The translations under genes and the position numbers were made by a program. A stretch of DNA of 64,000 bases from Brevundimonas sp. SH203 (lineage in GTDB: Bacteria > Pseudomonadota > Alphaproteobacteria > Caulobacterales > Caulobacteraceae): NCBI RefSeq assembly GCF_002157625.1, contig NZ_BDMM01000008.1:1-64000 (forward strand), written 5' to 3'. Below, piece by piece: positions 27,959 through 44,431 of this stretch. Within the stretch, counting starts at the first letter, position 1, and each line of letters starts with the position of its first letter. The notes under the pieces are model-generated. The model ran no database searches. It had not been told where the DNA came from and saw only the letters and a list, made by a program, of their open reading frames with translations.

Positions 27959-29494
27959 ATGAGCCAAGCCATCCTTGAAGAATTGGAGCGCCGTCGCGCC
28001 GCCGCGAAACAGGGCGGCGGGGAAAAGCGTATCGCCGCCCAGCACGCCAAGGGCAAGCTGACCGCGCGCGAACGCATCGACGTGCTGCTGGACGAGGGCT
28101 CCTTCGAAGAGACCGACATGTTCGTGGAGCATCGCAGCCACGACTTCGGCATGCAGGACCAGCGCATCCCCGGCGACGGCGTGGTGACGGGGCGCGGGAC
28201 CATCGGCGGGCGGCTGGTCTATGTCTTCTCCAAGGACTTCACGGTGTTCGGCGGTTCTCTGTCGGGCGCCCATGCGGCCAAGATCGTTAAGCTGCAGAAG
28301 ATGGCCCTGACGACCGGCGCCCCGATCGTCGGCCTGTTCGACGCAGGCGGCGCGCGGATTCAGGAAGGGGTGGAAAGTCTAGCGGGTTACGCCGACATCT
28401 TCCTGCAGAATACCCTGGCCTCAGGCGTCATTCCCCAGATCAGCGTGATCATGGGACCGTGTGCGGGGGGCGACGTCTATTCGCCCGCCATCACCGACTT
28501 CATCTTCATGGTGAAGGACACCTCCTACATGTACGTGACCGGCCCCGACGTGGTGAAGACCGTCACCAACGAGGTGGTCAGCCACGAGGACCTGGGCGGC
28601 GCCCGCGTCCACGCCGGCAAGTCGGGCGTGGCGGACGGGGCGTTCGAGAACGATCTGGAAGCCCTGTCGGAGGTGCGCCGCCTGATCGGCTTCCTGCCGC
28701 TGTCAAACCGCGAAAAGCCGCCGGTGCGCGAATCCTATGACGAGCCGGATCGCGACGAGCCGTCGCTGGACACATTGATCCCGGCCAATCCGAACCAGCC
28801 CTATGACATGAAGGAACTGATCCTGAAGACGGTCGACGAGGCCGATTTCTTCGAGATCGGCGCCGACTTCGCCAAAAACATCATCACCGGCTTCGGCCGG
28901 CTGGACGGCCAGACGGTCGGGATCGTCGCCAACCAGCCCCAGGTGCTGGCGGGCGTGCTGGACATCGACAGTTCAAGGAAGGCCGCGCGTTTCGTGCGCT
29001 TCTGCGACGCCTTCGACATTCCGCTGGTGACGCTGGTGGACGTGCCGGGCTTCATGCCGGGGACCAAGCAGGAATACGGCGCCCTGATCAAACACGGGGC
29101 CAAGCTGCTGTTCGCCTATGCTGAGGCGACGGTGCCGAAACTGACCCTGATCACGCGCAAGGCCTATGGCGGCGCCTATGACGTGATGAGCTCCAAACAC
29201 CTGCGCGGCGACGTCAACTACGCCTGGCCCACCGCCGAGATCGCGGTCATGGGCGCCAAGGGCGCGGTCGAGATCATCTTCCGCAAGGAGGCCGGCGATC
29301 CCGAGGCGCTGGCCGCGCGCGAGGCCGAATACAAGGACCGTTTCGCCAATCCGTTCGTGGCGGCGGGCCTGGGCTACATCGACGACGTCATCATGCCGCA
29401 CGGGACCAGGCGGCGGCTGGTGAAGGCGCTGCGGACGCTGAAAAACAAGGCCCAGGAGAACCCCTGGAAGAAGCACGACAACATTCCGCTGTGA
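27959..29494 (+). CDS. pccB: propionyl-CoA carboxylase beta subunit
   Basis: A 511-aa carboxyltransferase subunit that moves the carboxyl group from biotin to propionyl-CoA, giving methylmalonyl-CoA. It has two crotonase-like halves: [20 protein letters not shown] and [22 protein letters not shown], then [28 protein letters not shown] and [23 protein letters not shown]. Length and motifs are those of PccB. The ATG at 27959 follows GAGAGGCG at a usable distance; the frame is open 120 bp further up through the operator array, which is not coding. The alpha subunit gene is 649 bp downstream, separated by repeats and a nuclease gene. Confidence 0.95.
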
Positions 29495-29522
29495 GGATGG
29501 CTTCCTTGGCTTCACTTCTTTC

Positions 29523-29624
29523 GTCATCCTCGCCCTTGTGGCGAGGATCCATACGCTCGGTATGGGCCGGTGCGCGCCGACCCCGAATGAGTCTATGGAT
29601 TCTAGGCACAAGGCCTAGGATGAC
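29523..29624. repeat. paired palindromic intergenic repeat, copy 1
   Basis: Two inverted units, 29523-29552 and 29595-29624. Each unit runs GTCATCCT, a hairpin with a CTTGT-like loop, then a mirror arm ending ATCCAT. Unit 2 read in reverse matches unit 1 at most positions. It lies between pccB and the GIY-YIG gene. Confidence 0.85.
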
Positions 29625-29643
29625 GGGCTTTGAGAGGGGAGAT

Positions 29644-30027
29644 TTACGCCTCCGGCGGCGTCCAGTCGCGGTAAGCTTGGGGATCGGGCGCAACCTCAAT
29701 GTCGTTGCAGGTCAACCCATCGAACAGATCGTCCCAGTCCGGGTTCGTTCGTTCGATCAGGTTGGCCTTCCAATCGCGCGGCCAGCGTTTCAGCGACTTC
29801 TCGCGTTGGATCGCGCCGACGATAGTGTCGTGAAATTCGTACCAGACCAGCCGTTTCAGGCCGTACCGTTTGGTGAAGCCGTCGATGAGGCCTTCACGAT
29901 GCTGGACGACGCGGGCGACCAACTGAGCACTGACGCCAATGTAGAGCGTTCCATGCTTGCGGTTGCTCATCATGTAGCAGCCGATCTGGTTGTCGATACC
30001 GACCACTTCCAACCCCTCGACCTTCAT
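29644..30027 (-). CDS. small GIY-YIG nuclease-domain protein
   Basis: A 127-aa protein that is essentially one GIY-YIG domain (UvrC N-terminal/COG2827 type). Family residues are all present: Tyr18 in CYMMSN, Tyr29 in TLYIGVS, Arg39 and Arg44 in the following helix, Glu76 in IQREKSLKRW, and Asn89/Asn95 near the end. It should therefore be an active metal-dependent nuclease. It is on the minus strand between plus-strand pccB and pccA, flanked on both sides by inverted palindromic repeats. Its ATG at 30027 lies within the arm of repeat copy 2 and there is no normal ribosome site. Upstream in-frame codons read through the repeat and are not used. It is probably an insertion into the pcc operon and not part of the pathway. 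Confidence 0.85.
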   Translation of the reverse strand: MKVEGLEVVGIDNQIGCYMMSNRKHGTLYIGVSAQLVARVVQHREGLIDGFTKRYGLKRLVWYEFHDTIVGAIQREKSLKRWPRDWKANLIERTNPDWDDLFDGLTCNDIEVAPDPQAYRDWTPPEA

Positions 30028-30125
30028 CCTCGGGCCTGTCCCGAGAATCCATACTCTCCGCCGCCCGCTAGTGCGCACCGGCCTCGCTCGTGCGCATGGA
30101 TCCTAGGCACAAGGCCTAGGATGAC
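30023..30125. repeat. paired palindromic intergenic repeat, copy 2
   Basis: Units 30023-30052 and 30096-30125 in inverted orientation. The second unit shares the CCTAGG..CAAGG..CCTAGG core with unit 2 of copy 1. The minus-strand ATG of the GIY-YIG gene is inside the first arm (30025-30027). Confidence 0.85.
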
Positions 30126-30143
30126 GACAGTGAAGGACTGACC

Positions 30144-32135
30144 ATGTTCTCCAAAATCCTCATCGCCAACCGGGGCGAGATCGCGGTTCGGATCATCAAG
30201 ACCTGCCGCAAGATGGGCATCCAGACGGTGCAGGTCTATTCGGAGGCCGACGCCGGGTCGTTGGCGGTCGAGATGGCCGACGAGGCGGTGCTGATCGGGC
30301 CCGCGCCGGCGGCGCAGTCCTATCTGCTGGCGGACAAGATCGTCGAGGCGGTGCGCCAGACGGGGGCGCAGGCCGTGCATCCGGGCTTCGGCTTCCTGTC
30401 CGAGAACGCCGGGTTCGCGCGGCGGCTGAGGGACGAGGGGATCGCCTTCATCGGCCCGAACCCCGAGGCCATCGAGGCCATGGGCGACAAGATCAGCTCC
30501 AAGAAGCTGGCGGCCGAGGCGGGGGTCTCGACCGTGCCGGGCCATATGGGCCTGATCGAGACGCCGGACGAGGCGGTCAGGATCGCTCGCGAAATCGGCT
30601 ATCCGGTCATGATCAAGGCCTCGGCGGGCGGCGGCGGCAAGGGCATCCGCGTCGCCCATTCGGACGCCGACATGGCCGAAGGTTTTGCGGCGGTGAAGGC
30701 CGAGGCGCTGAACGCCTTCGGCGACGACCGGGTCTTCCTTGAGAAGTTCATCGTCGATCCGCGCCACATTGAGATTCAGGTGCTGGGCGACAAGCACGGC
30801 CACGTCGTCCATCTGTTCGAACGCGAATGTTCGATCCAGCGTCGCAACCAGAAGGTCATCGAAGAGGCGCCGTCGCCCCTGCTGGACGAAGCCACCCGCG
30901 CCGCCATGGGGGCGCAGGCCGTCGCCTTGGCCAAGGCGGTGAACTATGACAGCGCCGGGACGGTCGAGTTCGTCGCGGGGCAGGACAAGAGCTTCTACTT
31001 CCTGGAGATGAACACCCGACTGCAGGTCGAGCATCCGGTGACGGAACTGATCACCGGCGTCGATCTGGTCGAACAGATGATCCGTTCGGCCTGGGGCGAG
31101 AAACTGGCCTTCGAACAGAAGGACCTGAAGATCGACGGCTGGGCCATCGAGAGCCGCATCTACGCCGAAGACCCCTATCGCGGCTTCCTGCCCTCGATCG
31201 GGCGGCTGGTCCGCTATGAGCAGCCGGAGGAGGGCGAGCATTTCGGCGCCGACGGCCCCTATGTGGTCCGAAACGATTCCGGCGTCCGCGAGGGCGATGA
31301 GATCAGCATGTTCTACGACCCCATGATCGCCAAACTGTGCGCCTGGGGCGAGACGCGGGCCGACGCGGTCGAGGGCATGGCCCGCGCGCTGGAGGACACC
31401 CATCTGGCGGGGCTGGGCCACAATGTGCCCTTCCTGGCGGCGGTGATGGATCAGGACCGCTTCAAGTCGGGCGAACTGTCGACCAGCTATATCAAGGACG
31501 AGTTCCCGGACGGCTTCCACGGCCTGCGCCCGACCCAGGCGCAGGAGCGCATCCTGATCGCCTCGGCCCTGGCCATGCACGAGGTGATCGCCGAACAGGA
31601 CGGCGACCCGTCCGAGCGCACCGACTGGATCGTCATGATCGACAAGACGCCCCACGGCGTCAGCCTGTCCTATGACGAGGACGAAGAGATGATCCTGACC
31701 CTGACGGGCGGGGGCGACATCCGCCTGTCGGACATCGACTGGCGGCCGGGTCTGGCCCAGTTCAAGGCCGATCTGGACGGCGAGGCGTTCACCGCCGAGG
31801 TCAAGCGCGTCGCCGACGGCTTCGACATCCGTCACCGTGCGGCCCGGGCGCGGGTGCGGGTGCTGCGTCCCCATGTCGCCGAACTGTACGCCCGCCTGCC
31901 GGAAAAGGCCGTGGCGGACACCTCCAAACTGGTGCTGTCGCCGATGCCGGGTCTGGTGGTGTCGATCCCGGTGACGGTCGGTCAGGAGGTCAAGACCGGC
32001 GAGACCGTGGCCATCATCGAGGCCATGAAGATGCAGAACATCCTGAAGGCCGAACGCGACGGCGTGGTGAAGGCCGTCGGCGCCAAGGACGGCGACCCCG
32101 TGGCGGCGGACGACGTGCTGGTGGAGTTCGGGTGA
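30144..32135 (+). CDS. pccA: propionyl-CoA carboxylase alpha subunit (biotin-carrying)
   Basis: A 663-aa biotin carboxylase/biotin carrier fusion. The biotin carboxylase part (about 1-450) starts FSKILIANRGEIAVRIIKTC and has the ATP-grasp loop KASAGGGGKGIRV and FLEMNTRLQVEHPVTE. A middle BT domain follows. The C-terminal biotinyl domain has the attachment lysine in IEAMKMQNILKAE. It carboxylates its own biotin for PccB. AAGGA precedes the ATG. By itself it could serve acetyl- or propionyl-CoA; neighbouring mutase and epimerase genes settle on propionyl-CoA. Confidence 0.95.
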   Translation: MFSKILIANRGEIAVRIIKTCRKMGIQTVQVYSEADAGSLAVEMADEAVLIGPAPAAQSYLLADKIVEAVRQTGAQAVHPGFGFLSENAGFARRLRDEGIAFIGPNPEAIEAMGDKISSKKLAAEAGVSTVPGHMGLIETPDEAVRIAREIGYPVMIKASAGGGGKGIRVAHSDADMAEGFAAVKAEALNAFGDDRVFLEKFIVDPRHIEIQVLGDKHGHVVHLFERECSIQRRNQKVIEEAPSPLLDEATRAAMGAQAVALAKAVNYDSAGTVEFVAGQDKSFYFLEMNTRLQVEHPVTELITGVDLVEQMIRSAWGEKLAFEQKDLKIDGWAIESRIYAEDPYRGFLPSIGRLVRYEQPEEGEHFGADGPYVVRNDSGVREGDEISMFYDPMIAKLCAWGETRADAVEGMARALEDTHLAGLGHNVPFLAAVMDQDRFKSGELSTSYIKDEFPDGFHGLRPTQAQERILIASALAMHEVIAEQDGDPSERTDWIVMIDKTPHGVSLSYDEDEEMILTLTGGGDIRLSDIDWRPGLAQFKADLDGEAFTAEVKRVADGFDIRHRAARARVRVLRPHVAELYARLPEKAVADTSKLVLSPMPGLVVSIPVTVGQEVKTGETVAIIEAMKMQNILKAERDGVVKAVGAKDGDPVAADDVLVEFG

Positions 32136-32155: not shown

Positions 32156-32262
32156 GTCATCCTCGGGCTTGACCCGAGGATCGGATGGTCCGCCGCCTGT
32201 GCGGCGCCTTGGGACGCAGGGTCTGTCCGGCGCCCGGTCCTCGGGTCAAGCCCGAGGATGAC
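32156..32262. repeat. paired palindromic intergenic repeat, copy 3
   Basis: Inverted units 32156-32185 and about 32236-32262. Each has CCTCGGG and CCCGAGG arms around a CTTGA loop, ending in the GTCAT/ATGAC border. It lies between pccA and mutA. Confidence 0.85.
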
Positions 32263-38484: not shown

Positions 38485-38614
38485 GTCATCTTCGGGTTTG
38501 TCCCTAGGAGCCATCGCTCCGTCGCGCGATGGCCGTTTGTCAGCGACGGGAAAATACAGGGCGAGGAGGCGTGGGGCCTCAGCCATAGGCCCTCGGGATA
38601 AACCCGAGGGTGAC
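38485..38614. repeat. paired palindromic intergenic repeat, copy 4 (diverged)
   Basis: Inverted units 38485-38514 and about 38584-38614 with TTCGGG / CCCTCGG arms and a TTTG-like loop. The arms contain several substitutions relative to the other copies. It lies between kbl and tdh. Confidence 0.75.
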
Positions 38615-44404: not shown

Positions 44405-44407
44405 ACT

Positions 44408-44431
44408 CCTCGGGTCAAGCCCGAGGATGAC
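44408..44431. repeat. single palindromic repeat unit between convergent genes
   Basis: CCTCGGG (44408-44414) pairs with CCCGAGG (44420-44426) and is followed by the ATGAC border. It is one unit of the paired family seen at 29.5, 30.0, 32.2 and 38.5 kb. It could serve as a terminator for the converging LysR and hemF genes, but no T run is seen. Confidence 0.75.

Follow-up and report, generated by a model that had tools for sequence, protein, structure and literature searches.

A single-domain GIY-YIG nuclease gene and the CGTC-type hairpins that frame it are probably inherited as one cassette in Brevundimonas

Within the 64,000 nucleotides of Brevundimonas sp. SH203 analysed here (the window), a short gene lies antisense between two genes that we take to be pccB and pccA, with palindromic repeats on both of its sides. 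The locus raises the question of whether the gene and the repeats belong together and, if so, what the encoded protein does with them. The left neighbour ends at 29494 and the right one occupies 30144-32135 on the + strand. The gene (29644-30027, − strand, stop codon at 29644-29646) encodes, as the first-pass annotation stated, a single-domain GIY-YIG protein, with PF01541 as its sole Pfam match (profile E-value 5.5e-11). An alignment of 9 relatives shows no variation at Y18, Y29, G31, R39, H43, E76 and K80, which are presumably the residues of the active site. Translation may begin at ATG 30025-30027, giving 127 amino acids, or at GTG 30004-30006, giving 120. The annotation had the start codon formed by a repeat arm; the ATG does lie inside the arm, but the orthologues at the same junction (L042, L043 and L110) align with the GTG, which is outside it, and for that reason the repeat seems a doubtful source of the start codon. 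The nearest solved chains by profile are the distant UPF0213 GIY-YIG proteins 1zg2 and 1ywl (E-values 7.5e-07 and 0.0035). As to other identities, the protein had no PADLOC or PHROGs match that would make it a known anti-phage defence or phage protein, and no known RNA family was matched in 29400-30300 at the Rfam gathering thresholds.

The repeats are two composites of about 104 bp in direct orientation, with starts 500 bp apart. The left one (29522-29625) contains hairpins at 29523-29549 (+) and 29598-29624 (−), and the right one (30022-30126), its direct copy, at 30023-30049 (+) and 30099-30125 (−). The composites align over two stretches, of 35 and 56 nt, with 80% identity in each, which agrees with the earlier description of the flanks as two copies of one inverted-pair palindrome. 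Within each composite a CCTCG-type and a CCTAGGC-type hairpin are inverted with respect to each other, with the GTCA tag outermost; one of the four cassette arms reads TTCA instead of GTCA. Folded as single-stranded DNA, both single hairpins tried adopt a 9-bp stem with a 5-nt loop; the fold z-scores were −6.9 and −5.4 for single hairpins and −5.8 and −3.0 for the composites, and none of 200 shuffles was as good in any case. The stems also show covariation. In 22 distinct arms from the CGGGCTTG/CCTAGGC group, selected for their similarity to a consensus, standard pairs fill 189 of 198 pair cells and there are 17 two-sided changes, against a mean of 164.8 and a maximum of 174 pair cells with shuffled partners. 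Copies without a gene are also present in the window: an inverted pair just after pccA (32156-32262; hairpins 32156-32182, +, and 32236-32262, −), a degenerate inverted pair (38485-38614; 38485-38511, +, and 38588-38614, −, with five and six mismatches to the consensus) and a single hairpin (44405-44431, −, two mismatches).

These hairpins match the CGTC-tagged REPs. In the covered parts of a 2013 survey such REPs have a CGTC tag, a stem of 8-9 bp, a loop of 4-5 nt and a CCA-like tail, form mostly head-to-head dimers and occur mostly in Alphaproteobacteria (PMC3733652); the window repeats share the CGTC tag, the 9-bp stem, the 5-nt loop, the CCA tail, the head-to-head dimers and the alphaproteobacterial host. 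The same parts of the survey report CGTC REPs without a dedicated transposase, leave open which enzyme, if any, spreads them, name no GIY-YIG partner and equate CGTCATTCCCGC-type hairpins with Neisseria dRS3, that is CGTC-1 (PMC3733652). GTAG REPs are acted on as single strands by the RAYT enzymes, which are HUH proteins according to the covered part of PMC8266576. As far as the covered parts of both sources go (PMC3733652, PMC8266576), the REP/RAYT systems (REPtrons, REPINs) share with our locus short tagged palindromes in head-to-head pairs, scattered gene-free copies and a gene framed by the same palindromes. They differ from it in that here the enzyme is a GIY-YIG nuclease, not an HUH tyrosine enzyme of IS200/IS605 kinship, and the tag is of CGTC type, not GTAG.

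The enzyme itself has a relative in Neisseria, as the first-pass annotation had suggested. A homologue of N. gonorrhoeae, which sits among CGTCATTCCCGC-type hairpins, shares 55% identity with the window protein over 88 amino acids. We take this homologue to be Ssn, a Neisseria nuclease that reportedly cuts such repeats as single strands; its family is said to be a widespread one of site-specific single-strand nucleases whose homologues were tested on their own sequences. The single GIY-YIG domain and the CGTC/dRS3-like hairpins are common to Ssn and the window protein. The differences are that here a frame of its own hairpin type surrounds each of four of the five copies in one genome and that cassettes of different type occupy one junction. 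No title linking GIY-YIG with REPs, dRS3 or Ssn was noticed among the literature matches listed, preprints and most subscription journals being outside that coverage.

Framing of the nuclease is not particular to the window. The SH203 genome (G000) has six PF01541 matches, one of which, a frame of 649 amino acids, is presumably UvrC, judging from its length. Matched inverted repeats stand on both sides of four of the other five (L001, L003, L004, which is the window copy, and L005), so that the expectation of repeat-flanked paralogues was borne out; the fifth, L002, has an inverted-repeat hairpin upstream without a match on the other side. The hairpin sequence varies among these copies. In the genus survey (41 genomes, the own one included; 97 GIY-YIG rows not taken for UvrC) each row was given the score of its best inverted alignment, the 300 nt upstream of the domain being compared with the 400 nt downstream of it. 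At a score of at least 36, 67 of the 97 rows are framed, against 14.3% of mismatched locus pairs and 2 of 44 window open reading frames, both of the latter being at the nuclease site. The 30 unframed rows include L042 and L046 at pccB-pccA, the outliers L015, L124 and L125, and L117, which is cut by a contig end. Apart from these three outliers the rows (94 of 97) fall into one protein cluster, and cut-offs of 0.55-0.65 left the family unsplit. Flanks in direct orientation are invalid as a control, since palindromes match themselves (at least 36 in 23 of 97 rows; at least 32 in 10 of 27 and 39 of 75 in the samples described below), and 20 UvrC loci were left out as a control, their stretches ending inside the gene.

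The search was extended to 200 genomes sampled from the phylum, 105 of which had matches. Of the 27 strongest loci outside the genus, scored one per genome, 19 are framed at a score of at least 32, compared with 64 of 702 mismatched pairs; eight have no frame by score. Named genomes were scanned as well; of 583 relatives the best 80 were taken, and 75 had enough flank. Here 53 of 75 reach at least 32, yet so do 38.8% of mismatched pairs, a weak control because that clade mostly uses one hairpin family; 22 loci have no frame by score. The GTCA tag stands at both outer ends, as scored, in 30 of the 53 framed loci from these best 80 of 583. By title the best 80 come from several classes of proteobacteria and from Planctomycetes, Anaerolineae and Nitrospira; metagenome bins are numerous among them. 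Within L236-L315 (that same best 80 of 583) close relatives of one nuclease clade, in records titled as several phyla, are accompanied by a nearly identical GTCATTCCCGCG-type hairpin, which hints that nuclease and hairpin may have been transferred together.

The varying hairpins allow the pairing of enzyme and repeat to be assessed across sites. By translated similarity of the outer flanks the 97 rows form 36 site clusters, 28 of which contain the 67 framed rows. Each framed nuclease was paired with the closest framed protein from a different genome and a different site cluster, and a flank score of at least 36 was taken as a match. The flanking hairpins match in 60 of the 67 pairs, with a mean score of 57.2. 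When flanks were permuted within genomes (2000 trials) the mean was 38.0 (sd 3.2, maximum 50.0), and permutation over all rows reached at most 46.7. Hairpin labels were placed on a quick tree in which each combination of site cluster and label was represented once (31 rows, three of them unlabelled, having been missed by the motif list; 15 of 28 inner branches open). They need nine changes, where six is the least possible and shuffled labels need 18.6 on average, none of 200 shuffles being as low. The labels, carrier lists and motifs used in the tree, hairpin-count and junction tests were made by hand. Judged by one clade, nucleases of type A are found in several different site clusters. Nucleases stand in a frame of matched inverted hairpins, and nuclease clade agrees with hairpin type across independent sites. 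Many insertions are common to several species at one site, which indicates that movement is infrequent.

The pccB-pccA junction was compared in 30 loci around pccA, with pccB in reach in 14. Four of these junctions contain nuclease genes, three are empty and seven hold other cargo. The gap in the empty ones (G038, G023 and G030) is just 8-11 bp, and so the prediction that removal of the cassette would leave pccB directly followed by pccA describes junctions that exist. A fifth nuclease at pccB-pccA, in G025 (L110), is framed. Considering the five genomes together, G000, G010 and G025 keep both composites, G018 retains only the left hairpin and G032 only a stub; nucleases at this position without repeats, which the first-pass annotation would have held against the association, are thus found in part, the frame being complete in three genomes and incomplete in two. 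None of the seven other cargoes is framed.

Small unrelated genes make this junction a hot spot (L037, L038, L039, L041, L045, L062 and L065). Pfam assigns DUF4145 to L038, Fic to L039, LMWPc to L041, NucS_C to L062 and DUF4760 to L065, with no match for L037 and L045; PADLOC matches L038 (PD-T7-4), L039 (PDC-S23) and L062 (PDC-S02), with no match for L037, L045 and L065.

A second junction is that of the L001 copy. L001 lies between genes that we take to be an acyl-CoA dehydrogenase gene (acd) and rsmE, and among 30 loci both neighbours are in reach in 22. Nine contain a nuclease: type C in G000, G002, G011 and G018, type A in G001, G006, G022 and G024, and type B, on the other strand, in G014. 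In all nine the motif of the nuclease's own hairpin type occurs twice, on both sides. The gap ends match in six of the nine; in G001, G022 and G018 the gap contains an extra stretch and the frame is seen around the gene. Two junctions (G009 and G010) are empty, with 16 bp, and that of G031, with 174 bp, contains a hairpin pair without a gene. Ten of the 22 hold other cargo, with inverted ends in none and one short motif match in two; both junctions taken together, 0 of 17 other cargoes are framed. Different nuclease-hairpin cassettes therefore occupy one and the same junction. At acd-rsmE of G038 (L227, 1830-2362) a YefM/YoeB toxin-antitoxin pair is located where other genomes hold nuclease cassettes.

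The L005 site, between genes that are presumably serA and a lipase gene, was compared in 18 of 30 loci: the cassette is present in G000, a decayed nuclease in G008, a short junction in 15 and other sequence in G016. Sites without the cassette, which the annotation had anticipated in relatives, are accordingly seen at all three junctions. In G008 (L177, after position 1800) the decayed gene, of type B, lies between both hairpins and was missed by the PF01541 search. Inspection of the L005 site by eye revealed no target duplication, and extra unmatched bases lie outside the hairpins. With regard to the borders, when insertions at different sites are compared, their homology sets in at the outer hairpin end. 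For type A it both starts and stops at the outer hairpin ends, as judged by eye in 10 rows, not all of them from separate site clusters. In type B the homology sets in at the upstream hairpin but continues past the 3′ hairpin to the stop codon, and for this reason the hairpins are often, not always, the cassette borders. In type B genes (among them L005, L084, L090, L109, L114, L115 and L119) the 3′ hairpin is translated in frame, as DPRVKPEDD in many, and is followed by a further conserved tail.

Exact copies of three hairpin patterns were counted in the 41 genus genomes, with tests that ignore phylogeny. The type A hairpin has a median of 17 in 20 carriers of the A-type protein versus 3 in 21 others (one-sided p 1.5e-4), and the CGGGCTTG-type hairpin a median of 10.5 in 18 genomes with a nuclease beside the motif versus 2 in 23 others (p 1.8e-4); the cross-controls gave p 0.03 and 0.21. 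Exact copies of the window type occur in four of five carriers versus 5 of 36 non-carriers (Fisher p 0.0055, carriers listed by hand), and the nine genomes that have them are mostly close relatives by pccA. The suspicion that repeats might be equally frequent where the nuclease is absent thus receives a divided answer: the window type is rarer in non-carriers, whereas the two commoner types, though enriched in carriers, are not confined to them, the type A hairpin reaching at least 10 copies in 7 of 21 non-carriers. The SH203 genome itself contains 32 exact copies of the CGGGCTTG-type hairpin and only six of the window CCTAGGC type. It also holds 44 exact type A copies with no type A nuclease found, an orphan repeat population.

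Several explanations have to be weighed against these data. A frame could arise by coincidence, since REPs are common between genes, so that any small intergenic gene may look framed, and the genome does hold at least tens of such hairpins. The control of the 44 window reading frames, in which the only two framed lie at the nuclease site, the mismatched flank pairs, the permutations of flanks within genomes and the lack of a frame around other cargo at these junctions (0 of 17) rule it out, the more so as hairpin type tracks nuclease clade; we regard it as extremely improbable. GIY-YIG domains occur in homing endonucleases, and a free-standing one that recognises the empty junction and copies itself in would account for empty junctions beside filled ones. 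Type A is, however, present in several site clusters and one junction accommodates three nuclease types, hence neither enzyme nor site is specific to the other, and the hairpin frame would be left without a reason; this reading appears very unlikely. A barrier or modulator of DNA uptake, in which the nuclease cuts incoming repeat-bearing single strands and so shapes natural transformation while the frame protects or regulates the gene, would be favoured by the 55% identity to the N. gonorrhoeae homologue among dRS3-like hairpins, Ssn being said to cut incoming single strands that carry the repeat, with an effect on natural transformation. Since a spreading unit accounts no less well for the several nuclease types per genome and for the exchange of types at one junction, we consider such a role possible and rather doubtful.

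A serious rival concerns the route of transfer. Small cargo can be exchanged in the style of minimal mobile elements, and pccB-pccA and acd-rsmE may be hot spots that swap it by homologous recombination between conserved neighbours, without transposition, the hairpins being passengers or regulatory sites. Unrelated small genes at 7 of 14 pccB-pccA and 10 of 22 acd-rsmE junctions, among them Fic, DUF4145, NucS_C-like and YefM/YoeB genes, speak for it, as do the extra unmatched bases beyond the hairpins of the L005 site. It leaves two things unexplained: that the nuclease is framed and other cargo (0 of 17) is not, and that hairpin type follows nuclease clade across sites. We give it somewhat less than an even chance; it may nevertheless be how the cassette is transferred, and it is compatible with cognate pairing. 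Taking into account on one side (i) the genus framing, (ii) the pairing test, (iii) the tree, (iv) the types at acd-rsmE, (v) the unframed pccB-pccA cargo (0 of 7), (vi) the stem covariation, (vii) the phylum framing and (viii) the hairpin counts of carriers, and on the other side the unframed rows, G018 and G032, hairpins without a cognate nuclease, the type B border and the lack of a target duplication by eye, we consider it probable, from the sequence comparisons, that a single-domain GIY-YIG nuclease and the hairpins cognate to it make up the cassette and are inherited together as a unit.

In the best reading of this cognate cassette, the nuclease would be the enzyme partner of its own hairpin type, playing the part that falls to RAYT transposases with GTAG REPs, an association resembling REP/RAYT that the first-pass annotation suggested and that the comparisons support. 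The invariant residues, together with what is reported for Ssn, suggest that the protein may recognise the folded single strand of its own hairpin and nick it next to the tag. The cut might be made in strands exposed during replication or DNA uptake, and host recombination might then help to copy or exchange hairpin pairs and cassette. That the nuclease itself mobilises the unit seems doubtful. We put forward, tentatively and as a rather unlikely proposal, that Ssn-like GIY-YIG nucleases could be the missing mobilising enzymes of CGTC REPs, a second and chemically unrelated REP-moving class. They would nick folded single-stranded DNA and spread hairpin pairs together with their own gene, without the covalent tyrosine intermediate of RAYTs, and several nuclease-hairpin lineages of separate specificity would coexist in a genome. 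A candidate enzyme is thereby offered for CGTC REPs, which in the covered parts of the survey predominate in Alphaproteobacteria and include the dRS3 of Neisseria (PMC3733652). Were the proposal true, a nuclease would be expected to cleave hairpins of its own clade but not those of other clades, and several natural pairs are available within a single genome; REP families would have a second enzyme chemistry, and a natural set of site-specific single-strand nucleases would be at hand whose specificity is readable from the flanks. If the Ssn work had already linked nuclease and repeat, what remains would be the cassette behaviour, namely that one junction can contain different nuclease-hairpin types, a lone hairpin pair or no insert at all.

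A last observation concerns the opposite strand of the cassette. A frame of 216 codons is open on the + strand at 29491-30141, starting at the end of pccB and crossing the entire cassette in antisense, and is probably a by-product of base composition.
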